The position numbers were made by a program, and so were the translations under genes. The notes below the pieces were generated by a model. The model was given only the letters and a program-made list of their open reading frames with translations. It searched no databases and had not been told where the DNA came from. From Pseudomonadota bacterium (lineage in GTDB: Bacteria > Pseudomonadota > Gammaproteobacteria > JAKAQQ01): a stretch of 64,000 nt of DNA. The stretch covers positions 1 through 64,000 of the forward strand of contig DAHXNI010000031.1 in assembly GCA_027365475.1 (NCBI GenBank), read 5' to 3'. Within the stretch, counting starts at the first letter, position 1. Every line of letters begins with the position of its first letter. Shown here piece by piece: positions 1,798-21,668 of this stretch.

Positions 1798-2303
1798 CCT
1801 TGCAGCCTTATTTTCTGACACTTGCCTCCTACCACCGTTGGGCCTACAGAAAACTGATCGAAAGCCTCAAGCCGATCGACGATCAGGAGTATCGGCAGGA
1901 TGCGGGTTTGCCATTCGGCAGTATCCACGGAACCTTGAACCATCTGCTTCTGGTTGACCGGTTGTGGCTCGCGCGTTTCGAGCATCAGCCGGCAGCGTAC
2001 ACCCGGCTAGATGAAGAAATCGAGCAGGACCGGTTGCGTCTCGCATCTGCTCTGGACCAGGGGGTCGAACGGTGGAGGCAGGTATTGATGGGCTGGTCAG
2101 ATGAGCGGTTCTCGGGCGATCTTTCATACCTCACGACCGAAGGAGTGCCGCGCTGCCTCCCGGTGATCCCACTGCTCGCGCACGTTTTCAATCATGGCAC
2201 TCACCACCGGGGTCAGATCACGGCTGTTATCACGAGACTGGGCTTCGATTATCCGGTCTTGGATTTGCCATATTTTTTGGCCGAGGCCCATTCGCTGTTG
2301 TAA
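1794..2303 (+). CDS. DinB family protein (putative metal-dependent)
   Basis: GTLNHLLLVDRLWLARF and HVFNHGTHHRGQITAVITRLG motifs; TTG start overlapping the degV stop. Confidence 0.85.
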   Translation: MTLQPYFLTLASYHRWAYRKLIESLKPIDDQEYRQDAGLPFGSIHGTLNHLLLVDRLWLARFEHQPAAYTRLDEEIEQDRLRLASALDQGVERWRQVLMGWSDERFSGDLSYLTTEGVPRCLPVIPLLAHVFNHGTHHRGQITAVITRLGFDYPVLDLPYFLAEAHSLL

Positions 2304-2329
2304 AGAATGCATGGTTCGACAAGCCGACT

Positions 2330-3157
2330 TCAATGGAGCATAAGAGCGCTGAGTCCCATCAACACGCAATAGACGGCAAAAGGCCTCAGTGCCGTGACTT
2401 CTCGAAAACGGAAGTAGCGCATGAGAAACCAGATGCTGAACCACGCGCAAAGACCTGCTACCAGACCTGCGAGCAGGATTGATCCGAGAAATGAACTCGC
2501 GCCGGTGTGGTTCAAAAACAGCTTGGGTATCTCGAGCAGACCGGCAGCGCCGATGATAGGGGTCGCGAGCAAAAAAGAAAAACGGGCGGCCGCTTCGTAA
2601 TCCAAACCAGTTGCGAGACCAGTCACCAGGGTTGCTGCCGAGCGCGAGATCCCGGGAATGAGCGCAGTCGCCTGCGCGAGGCCAATGCAGAGAACTTCTG
2701 CGGGCCTGAGTTCGTCCAGGTGTCGCCGGACTCCTTCGCGCCGCTTGAGGCGGTCTCCAACCCAGAGGCCCACGCCATTCAAGACCAGGAAAACCGCTGC
2801 GACTGTAAAGCCGGCAAAAAGGCCCCGGACCCACCTCTCGAGCAAGAGTCCCAGGAGGCCTGCGGGGACTGTACCCAGCACGAGTAGCCAGAACAGACGG
2901 GTTTCAGGCTGTGTGGTTCTACCCCGTGTCTGAATCAGGCTTTTCAAAATCCCCCACCAGTCGCGCCAAAAATAGGCGAGCAAAGCCGTTGCCGTTCCGA
3001 CGTGCAGAACTACGATGAATGGCAGAAACCAGGGTGCTGCGCGATTGATCTTGAGATGGAGCAGTGCCGGGATGATGATGCTGTGTGCGAGGCTTGATAC
3101 GGGGAAGAGTTCAGTCAACCCTTGGACGAGAGCCAGAAAGAGCAGGCGGAGAGTCAC
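2330..3157 (-). CDS. uppP: Undecaprenyl-diphosphatase (BacA/UppP)
   Basis: QGLTELFPVSSLAHS and IPGISRSAATLVTGL motifs, polytopic membrane protein. Confidence 0.9.
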   Translation of the reverse strand: MTLRLLFLALVQGLTELFPVSSLAHSIIIPALLHLKINRAAPWFLPFIVVLHVGTATALLAYFWRDWWGILKSLIQTRGRTTQPETRLFWLLVLGTVPAGLLGLLLERWVRGLFAGFTVAAVFLVLNGVGLWVGDRLKRREGVRRHLDELRPAEVLCIGLAQATALIPGISRSAATLVTGLATGLDYEAAARFSFLLATPIIGAAGLLEIPKLFLNHTGASSFLGSILLAGLVAGLCAWFSIWFLMRYFRFREVTALRPFAVYCVLMGLSALMLH

Positions 3158-4722
3158 CGGTCTTTTGCTTTCTCGGAACCGAGATCAAAGTGGATGCCCT
3201 GTGCGAGCGGTAACTCGCGACTGTAGTTAATGGTGTTGGTCTGGCGGCGCATGTAGTTTTTCCATGCATCCGATCCGGATTCGCGTCCTCCGCCCGTAGC
3301 CTTCTCACCGCCGAAAGCGCCACCGATCTCGGCACCGGAGGTACCGATATTCACGTTGGCAATTCCGCAATCGCTTCCCCGAGCTGAAAGAAACACCTCG
3401 GCATGGGCAATTTGTCTCGTAAAGATTGCTGATGACAATCCTTGTGGGACAGAGTTGTGGAACGCGATTGCTTCATCGAAATCACGATAGGTCAGGATAT
3501 AGAGTATGGGGGCAAAGGTTTCTTCTCGGATCAAGGGCCAAGTGGGTTCGGCCCGGACCAAGGTTGGCTCGACGAAATGGCCCGGACGATCCAGCACCTG
3601 TCCGCCGTATAAAATCTGTGCACCACGGGATCGAAGATCCTGTAGGGCAGCCTGGTACCGTTCGACTGCACCTCTGTCAATGAGGGGACCCATGAGTGTT
3701 TTCGGGTCGAGCGGATCGCCGATTTTGATTTGTTGGTAGGCGCGGACCAGTCGATCGATCAGGGTATCTGCAATCGAAGATTCGACAATGAGTCGCCGTG
3801 TGGAGGTGCAGCGTTGCCCAGCAGTGCCGACTGCGCCAAAGACGATGGCAGGTACGGCAAGATCGAGATCAGCCGATTCATCGACAATGATGGCATTGTT
3901 GCCGCCCAGTTCGAGGAGGCAACGCCCCAGTCGCTTGGCCGCAATTTCAGCCACACGAATTCCGATTGCGGTCGATCCGGTGAATGACATGAGCCCGATA
4001 CGCGAATCGGCGTAAAACCGCTCTGCCAGCTGATTGTCTGTGGTGGTGAACAGACTCGAAACCTGAGGAAAACCATTGGCTTCAAGCACATGGCTCACGA
4101 TTTTCTGAACTGCAACGGCCGATAGGACGGCCTTGGGTGATGGTTTCCATACTGTCACATCGCCACAGATCAAGGCCAGAAACGCGTTCCAGGCGTACAC
4201 CGCAACTGGGAAATTGAATGCAGTCGCGATCCCGACGATGCCAAGTGGATGCCACTGTTCGTACATCCTGTGTTCGGGGCGTTCGGAGTGCAACGTGAGT
4301 CCATAGAGCATGCGTGACTGCCCGACTGCAAAATCGGCCATGTCGATCATTTCCTGGACTTCTCCGTCTCCCTCTGCCTTGATTTTCCCCGTTTCCAGAC
4401 TGATCAGGCTGCCTAGGGCGTCTTTATATTGCCGCAAGGCCTCTCCGATCAATCGGACAGCCTGGCCGCGTTTCGGAGCAGGGATGCGTCGCCAAGCGTC
4501 GAAAGTCACCTGGCTTTCGATGAGAAGTCGTTCGTAGTGTTCTGGGTGAGTGGTCGCGAGAGTTGCGATGCGAACACCATTCGAGGGGCTGTGAATCTCA
4601 AGTCTCGGCATTTCCGGTGAGATGAGCCAACCGCACTGGCCGCTGAAGGTACCTGGCAGATCCCGACTGGGATCGAGATCCAACTGGGCGAGGATGTTTG
4701 CGGTGGTCATCGGGTTATGCAT
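3154..4722 (-). CDS. Aldehyde dehydrogenase, ALDH7/antiquitin-like (alpha-aminoadipate semialdehyde / piperideine-6-carboxylate dehydrogenase)
   Basis: LLELGGNNAIIV, GTAGQRCTSTRRL, EIGGAFGGEKATGGGRESGSDAWKNYMRRQTNTINYS: ALDH7-type active site and C-terminus. Confidence 0.88.
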   Translation of the reverse strand: MHNPMTTANILAQLDLDPSRDLPGTFSGQCGWLISPEMPRLEIHSPSNGVRIATLATTHPEHYERLLIESQVTFDAWRRIPAPKRGQAVRLIGEALRQYKDALGSLISLETGKIKAEGDGEVQEMIDMADFAVGQSRMLYGLTLHSERPEHRMYEQWHPLGIVGIATAFNFPVAVYAWNAFLALICGDVTVWKPSPKAVLSAVAVQKIVSHVLEANGFPQVSSLFTTTDNQLAERFYADSRIGLMSFTGSTAIGIRVAEIAAKRLGRCLLELGGNNAIIVDESADLDLAVPAIVFGAVGTAGQRCTSTRRLIVESSIADTLIDRLVRAYQQIKIGDPLDPKTLMGPLIDRGAVERYQAALQDLRSRGAQILYGGQVLDRPGHFVEPTLVRAEPTWPLIREETFAPILYILTYRDFDEAIAFHNSVPQGLSSAIFTRQIAHAEVFLSARGSDCGIANVNIGTSGAEIGGAFGGEKATGGGRESGSDAWKNYMRRQTNTINYSRELPLAQGIHFDLGSEKAKDR

Positions 4723-20661: not shown

Positions 20662-20769
20662 TCTCACCAACAGTCTCGCCACCATGATTGATTGCTGGTG
20701 ACCATGTTGAACGTGCTCCGTTGCGGGTTCCGATGGATCTCTCGCGTTGGAGTGCCGATAAAAATCGGC

Positions 20770-21639
20770 ATAGGGGACGCGGTTACCCGCGCGCCCCTGC
20801 CACACCACCGGACATGCGGGTCCGCATCCGGCGGTTCGGTGGGTTGAGCTGATCCGCGAAGATCAGGCGTGGTAGTCCGAGAGAATCAAAGTAGGCATTG
20901 GGCAGCGCGATAGCCAGGGCCGGTGAGTTTGCCAAGTGCCACGGGCCGTGGGAACTGCCCGCCGTTTGAGCGGCTAGCGTGACCCCCACGCCGCGTTGGC
21001 GTAGCTCGGCAAATCTCGTGCGCCCTCGCTTCCACTGCTTCCATAGCACCGACCGCAATCGGCGCCGTAGCCACTGCTCAAGGTCACATTGGCACACAGG
21101 GCCGTGAGCGGTTCGATCCCTTCCCGGTCAGCCTTCGGAGCTTCACTCCTACGGTCTGCCAGCAAGGCCCGTCCCAATTGCTAGGGTCGTGTTTTCTGCC
21201 GCCTGTCGCTCATGAGTCGCGGCTACCTACTCCCCACTCCCATTACCCTGCTTGCGCAGGACCGTTGGGGCCTTCACCGGTTGCCCGGCTAGTACGCCCG
21301 CTGCTGACTTCTACCATCCGGTCAGGGCCGATCACTCGGTCCTCAGCCGTGAATCCAGGGCCAATGGCAGATCTCCCGAGGTAAGTTCGACCGCCTTCCG
21401 CACACAACCGCCGAATTTACAACCCGGGTGCTTGATGAATATGGACTTCGTGGCCCTTTGCCCACTCGCCCCACCCGGTATGCCTTGTATCCGGTTCTTG
21501 TCCATCGGCTCGTACGTTTGCTCCACGCTTCTTTCAGACCCCGCCTCGCGGCGACGCCCTTGCGCTTCGCTAACCCTTCACCTCCATCAGGTTGGGTAGG
21601 GGACCTGCACCCCCAAGCTGTCAAACAAGCTCGGCACAC
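20770..21639 (-). mobile_element. Group II intron (bacterial group IIC-like), ~870 nt, with internally deleted maturase ORF
   Basis: Minus-strand 5' end GTGTGCCGAGC...GGGGGTGCAGGTCCCCTACCC...GATGGAGGTGAAGGGTTAGCGAAGCGCAAGGG directly after a terminator T-tract; domain V-like CGCCGGATGCGGACCCGCATGTCCGGTG and domain VI-like GGGGCGCGCGGGTAACCGCGTCCCCTAT at the 3' end. Confidence 0.85.
20783..21213 (-). pseudogene. Remnant group II intron reverse transcriptase/maturase (N-terminal MSDRRQKTRP-stop, then C-terminal fragment only)
   Basis: ATG at 21213, in-frame TAG at codon 11; C-terminal piece CDLEQWLRRRLRSVLWKQWKRGRTRFAELRQRGVGVTLAAQTAGSSHGPWHLANSPALAIALPNAYFDSLGLPRL resembles IIC maturase C-termini; RT catalytic blocks absent. 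Confidence 0.85.
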
Positions 21640-21668
21640 AAAAAGAGGGCAGGATCGATCCTGCCCTC
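21640..21668 (-). terminator. Rho-independent terminator of the HAF-repeat gene; also the group IIC intron insertion site
   Basis: Perfect 24-bp palindrome GAGGGCAGGATC/GATCCTGCCCTC (21645-21668) followed on the minus strand by TTTTT (21640-21644) and then intron GTGTGCC. Confidence 0.9.

Follow-up and report, generated by a model that had tools for sequence, protein, structure and literature searches.

The DNA from position 21639 to position 20764, read on the minus strand of the window (the whole stretch of 64,000 nucleotides that was analysed), is a bacterial group IIC intron with a degenerate open reading frame (ORF). The best explanation of its structure, which can be held with considerable confidence, is that a IIC intron inserted into the T-tract of a terminator, that an IS3-like element then inserted into its ORF, and that a deletion reduced it to a non-autonomous relic. 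IIC introns with a degenerate ORF are of a kind already known; what is unusual here is that the history can still be read. The cause of the short length, which was not seen in an earlier note made from the sequence, is apparently this insertion and deletion: the tip of an insertion sequence (IS) lies as a scar between two remnants of the maturase gene (Table 1).

Table 1. Features of the intron-derived element and its exons.
Feature	Position	Strand	Evidence
Rho-independent terminator of the HAF-repeat gene, 24-nt palindrome plus TTTTT; 5' exon (IBS1 is its last nucleotides)	21640..21668	minus	direct reading; scan; orthologous terminator without intron in same-genus genome
Complete intron-derived element, 876 nt, GTGTGCC...CCTATGCCGAT	20764..21639	minus	termini common to dozens of homologs; empty site
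Ribozyme domains I-III, 107/110 consensus pairs kept	21263..21639	minus	RF02001, RF01998; homologs at 75-85% identity; pair count
EBS1 AAAG(GG), pairs 6/6 (including G-U) with 5' exon CTTTTT	21454..21459 (core 21459-21456)	minus	flank covariation in 33 insertions
Probable EBS3 (A), pairs with T at 20763	21417 (element nt 223)	minus	best single column, weak
Remnant of N-terminal part of maturase (IEP) gene, with in-frame stop (MSDRRQKTRP*)	21101..21213	minus	local alignments to L041, L042, L086, L050
21-nt terminal sequence of IS3-like element (CCCTGTGTGCCAATGTGACCT)	21081..21101 (element nt 539-559)	minus	exact match to two repeat termini in genome
Remnant of IEP C-terminus (DLEQWLRRRLRS...GLPRL), free of stops and frameshifts	20861..21085	minus	identity to intact IEPs; tblastn; PF08388
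Domain V, 30 nt, CGC triad at 20833-20831	20805..20834	minus	identical to intact relatives (e.g. L045, L051, L058); RF00029 35.4 bits
Domain VI and 3' terminus ...CCTATGCCGAT	20764..20804	minus	RF00029 match; homolog ends
3' exon start TTTT, rest of terminator T-tract	20760..20763	minus	conserved homolog intron end; empty site

Target site and termini

The hairpin of the terminator (GAGGGCAGGATCGATCCTGCCCTC-TTTTT, 21668-21640 on the minus strand) is a perfect 24-nt palindrome, and both a reading of the sequence and a scan place GTGTGCCGAGC at 21639, directly after the TTTTT and without a gap. The insertion thus splits the T-tract into CCCTC-TTTTT on one side and TTTT on the other. A genome of the same genus carries the HAF gene, the terminator and the tRNA-Cys/tRNA-Gly pair without the intron, and so provides the empty site (GAGGGCAGGACCACCTGCCCTC-TTTTTT-AGCGGC). 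In alignments to this empty site the joined flanks score 461, versus 422 with the intron kept; the T-tract counts nine T here versus six there, a difference of a few T at the junction. The exact docking on a terminator described in the earlier note is borne out by these data. Almost all relatives are likewise located just 3' of a terminator, judging from the flanks of the recovered homologs, and in full-length homologs the hairpin and T-tract stand immediately before GTGTGCC. The empty site shows that the terminator was the insertion site, and by analogy with the family the route was probably that of a class C retrointron, which would have entered the T-tract 3' of the HAF-repeat gene terminator by means of the hairpin and a short EBS1/IBS1 match.

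Independent homologs begin at exactly the same base as the element, and the alignments of relatives in plasmid and E. coli DNA start at element base 1. At the other end the sequence ...CCTAT(C/G)CCGAT is common to dozens of introns and is followed by unrelated DNA, usually with T first. The true 3' end is therefore 20764, and this position replaces the boundary at 20770 in the earlier note, which was 6 nt short.

State of the ribozyme

A comparison with Rfam models over the whole window at gathering thresholds, as the earlier note had proposed, gives matches above cut-off in domains I-III: RF02001 (group-II-D1D4-3) scores 127 bits (E 8.6e-26) at 21555-21385 and RF01998 (D1D4-1) scores 39 bits at 21348-21269. 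The domain V/VI model RF00029 matches at 20836-20764 with 35.4 bits, short of the 40 that its cut-off requires. Two intact full-length relatives, L042 and L050, fall below this cut-off as well, which argues that a low score is typical of the clade and not a sign of damage. The hairpin previously likened to domain V is in fact identical to domain V of intact relatives, and the hallmarks of a group II intron are present: a domain V with catalytic triad and bulge, a domain VI, and a 3' end in AT. The DNA of domains I-III is 75-85% identical to that of full-length introns. That ordinary intergenic DNA should resemble an intron by chance is practically out of the question, this reading having already been refuted by the RF02001 match, by the identity to full-length introns and by the empty site.

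A consensus structure of domains I-III, comprising 110 pairs and folded without the sequence of this element, has three broken pairs here, within the range of other introns (most have 0-7). The three cluster at element nt 278-321, and the RF01998 score of 39 bits compares with 47-58 in relatives; slight decay around nt 278-321 is possible. Excess decay of the ribozyme as a whole is not clearly seen, because private changes at otherwise invariant columns number five here versus four in L083, an intact intron of equal distance.

Exon contacts and class

The search for EBS1 compared every column of domains I-III with the sequences 5' of 33 insertions. One strong signal was obtained, at element nt 181-184, where 83% are paired versus 48-49% after shuffling (z 8-11). 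The scan gave no comparable signal for an EBS2 further upstream, as expected for IIC introns, which lack this contact. The column of the probable EBS3 is paired in 32/36 cases versus 25.9 after shuffling (z 3.2), a weak signal. A short EBS1, an EBS3, no EBS2 and the terminator habit are traits of class C (IIC) introns (PMC3522654, PMC4424553). The set of covarying EBS1/IBS1 sequences also makes up a clean dataset on target recognition for the IIC clade.

When the IEP of a full-length relative is compared with solved structures, the GsI-IIC reverse transcriptase (RT) is closest (E 8e-144), followed by 7uim, another group II maturase (E 1.6e-102), LtrA (9e-37) and the 6me0 maturase (1e-34). The C-terminal remnant of the element shares 65-71% identity with IEPs that are themselves closest, among solved structures, to the GsI-IIC RT. 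The assignment to group IIC, which the earlier note had worded as "IIC-like", is supported on four lines: the affinity of the IEP of full-length relatives, an EBS1 and weak EBS3 without EBS2, the terminator site, and the CGC domain V. Membership of class C rests on the ribozyme and the C-terminal remnant, and the element is a derivative rather than a complete member.

The maturase gene and its probable IS scar

The element was correctly called ORF-degenerate, and only N- and C-terminal IEP remnants are left around the IS tip. The N-terminal ORF homology ends at element nt 539; the alignments of L041, L086 and L050 stop at the IS tip and that of L042 a few nt before it. The tip has exact matches elsewhere in the genome at G000:C48:24776-24796 and C43:117-137, and the same 21 nt taken backwards as a control have 0 matches in the genome. 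The C48 and C43 copies have 137 nt in common up to the tip and diverge just beyond it. The C48 repeat encodes an IS3-type transposase of 347 aa that contains rve domains, and it has a small upstream ORF; the transposase ORF matches NF033516 with E 2.9e-45 and 155 bits, just below the curated cut-off of 160. The designation IS3-like reflects these DDE transposase ORFs beside the matching tip. The element at C48 extends up to 24796 (about 5160-6797 in L145), measures about 1.6 kb and, to judge from the ORFs, appears to interrupt an istB-like gene; at C43:1-137 the same tip of a second IS copy lies at the contig start.

The C-terminal remnant is 66-71% identical to the C-termini of intact IEPs (65% by tblastn), and matches PF08388 with E 0.0013, below the cut-off. 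It resumes inside the 21-nt tip, with GACCT common to both. A first alignment had placed a 24-nt stub of the RT motif GGPLSPLLSN between two deletions; this was dropped in favour of the local alignments, which show the end of the N-terminal homology and the IS tip.

Because the N-terminal homology breaks off at the start of the IS tip and the C-terminal homology resumes within the tip, IS insertion followed by deletion is the simplest reading. An IS3-like element would have landed in the N-terminal part of the maturase gene, and a deletion that began 21 nt into the IS and reached as far as the last ~80 codons would then have removed most of the IS, the RT domain and about 330 codons of the maturase gene. 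The IS itself is gone, and it is the scar that points to both steps. The deletion junction may carry a microhomology of at least 5 nt (GACCT), its true length depending on the ancestral ORF sequence. IS elements also lie inside other introns of the family: the E. coli copy carries IS100 and the S. fredii copy ISSme2. These IS21-family elements split the full-length relatives L035 and L036, which argues that IS insertion into these introns recurs.

The ORF might instead have been lost during retrotransposition, by template switching on intron RNA or cDNA, and the 21 nt would then be filler picked up where the ends were joined. The family does often show internal deletions that spare both ends (10 further shortened introns among those recovered with both ends). 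However, the end of the N-terminal homology coincides exactly with the IS tip, as insertion predicts, and filler need not start at a tip, so that this origin is unlikely. It may also be that a 21-nt IS fragment was captured during repair or reverse transcription, in place of IS insertion and deletion.

Splicing and mobility

Insertion followed by deletion would leave a non-autonomous element that retains a near-intact ribozyme but lacks a functional reverse transcriptase. As in other IIC introns, its transcription would presumably depend entirely on read-through of the terminator by RNA polymerase. Hydrolytic splicing in such read-through transcripts could rejoin the T-tract, and the spliced exons would read CCCTC-TTTTTTTTT-ATCGGC. 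Residual splicing is plausible on the sequence evidence; it is doubtful, though conceivable, that the free-standing ORF-less IIC ribozyme does this in vivo without any host class C maturase.

Movement would require a class C maturase supplied in trans. The earlier note had suggested a compact derivative dependent on such a maturase; the first part of this claim holds, in that the element is a deletion derivative, and the second is unsupported. An element that is non-autonomous yet mobilised by a maturase encoded elsewhere would fit the intact ribozyme, EBS1/IBS1 contact and termini, and other ORF-reduced forms exist in the family, among them a 642-nt ORF-less copy that adjoins a full copy (L091). 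Against this, the genome search that the earlier note had recommended for relatives with an intact IEP gave a single copy of the element and no class C maturase in the assembly, which is 94% complete, so that one could be missed. The element was also not detected in two same-genus genomes, and it contains an IS scar and broken ORF remnants, not a clean domain IV. With neither several copies nor a cognate IEP found in the genome, trans-mobilisation is quite improbable, and nothing in these sequences supports ongoing mobility.

The RTs found in the genome are only 33-36% identical. G000 C8, C25, C103 and C65 carry five further group II intron RTs that belong to different classes (Rfam D1D4-2, D1D4-4), two of them in tandem on C25; the genome's other RTs were rejected as trans-acting maturases because of their different intron classes and low identity.

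Relationship to other introns

In a tree of domains I-III the element falls among Acidobacteriota introns, with support of 97/99 for the clade and 86/91 for the nearest group. Its host neighbourhood is uvrC-pgsA-tRNA. Since this neighbourhood is presumably gammaproteobacterial and the intron clade is that of Acidobacteriota, transfer of the intron between phyla is likely. Copies of the compact form on plasmids or in E. coli were considered and rejected: only full-length or IS-split relatives occur there, and none covers 80% of the query.

The element resembles class C introns (GsI-IIC relatives; L032-L034, L041-L044) in its 5' GTGTGCC, short EBS1, probable EBS3, lack of an EBS2 signal, CGC-type domain V and insertion 3' of Rho-independent terminators. 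It differs in its length of 876 nt, versus 1820-1980 nt in full-length members, in the deletion of the RT domain, and in the IS tip within the ORF remnant. Bacterial group II introns without an ORF are described as rare, and a related IEP is almost always present in the genome; those that lack a cognate maturase there are described as very rare, with C. tetani C.te.I1 given as the only one (PMC4424553). Like ORF-less introns, the element has a ribozyme without a working IEP; no related IEP was found in the host assembly. Unlike them, it still shows clear remnants of the ORF together with an IS scar. It may thus be an exception to the rule of a related IEP, within an assembly whose 94% completeness means that a maturase could be missed. 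The fragmented group II introns of Enterobacteriales (PMC3522654) are likewise inactivated copies with no full-length counterpart in the genome, but the element keeps both termini and its ribozyme, and has lost only the ORF. It offers a readable example of ORF loss in bacterial group II introns, in which IS insertion and deletion apparently left the ribozyme and targeting contacts intact.

The ten other introns that are shortened internally with both ends recovered (423-1395 nt) come, as do all counts of shortened introns here, from a search with a C-terminal query and do not give an unbiased rate; 4/11, this element included, keep domains I-III. Most such deleted introns seem to have lost parts of domain I, and so could not be active ribozymes. 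Internally deleted introns of the IIC clade with both termini kept are L128, L046, L100, L078, L056, L061, L009/L024, L055 and L065. The 642-nt ORF-less intron of L091 (1307-1948) lies directly before the full-length copy (1949-3784), which appears to lack its first three bases (GTG); the pair is possibly a tandem or recombination product. The 1036-nt intron of L009/L024 (G053) has a 5' flank with an imperfect hairpin ending in GTTTCAAACGT and no clear terminator, and this flank might be an attC-like site.
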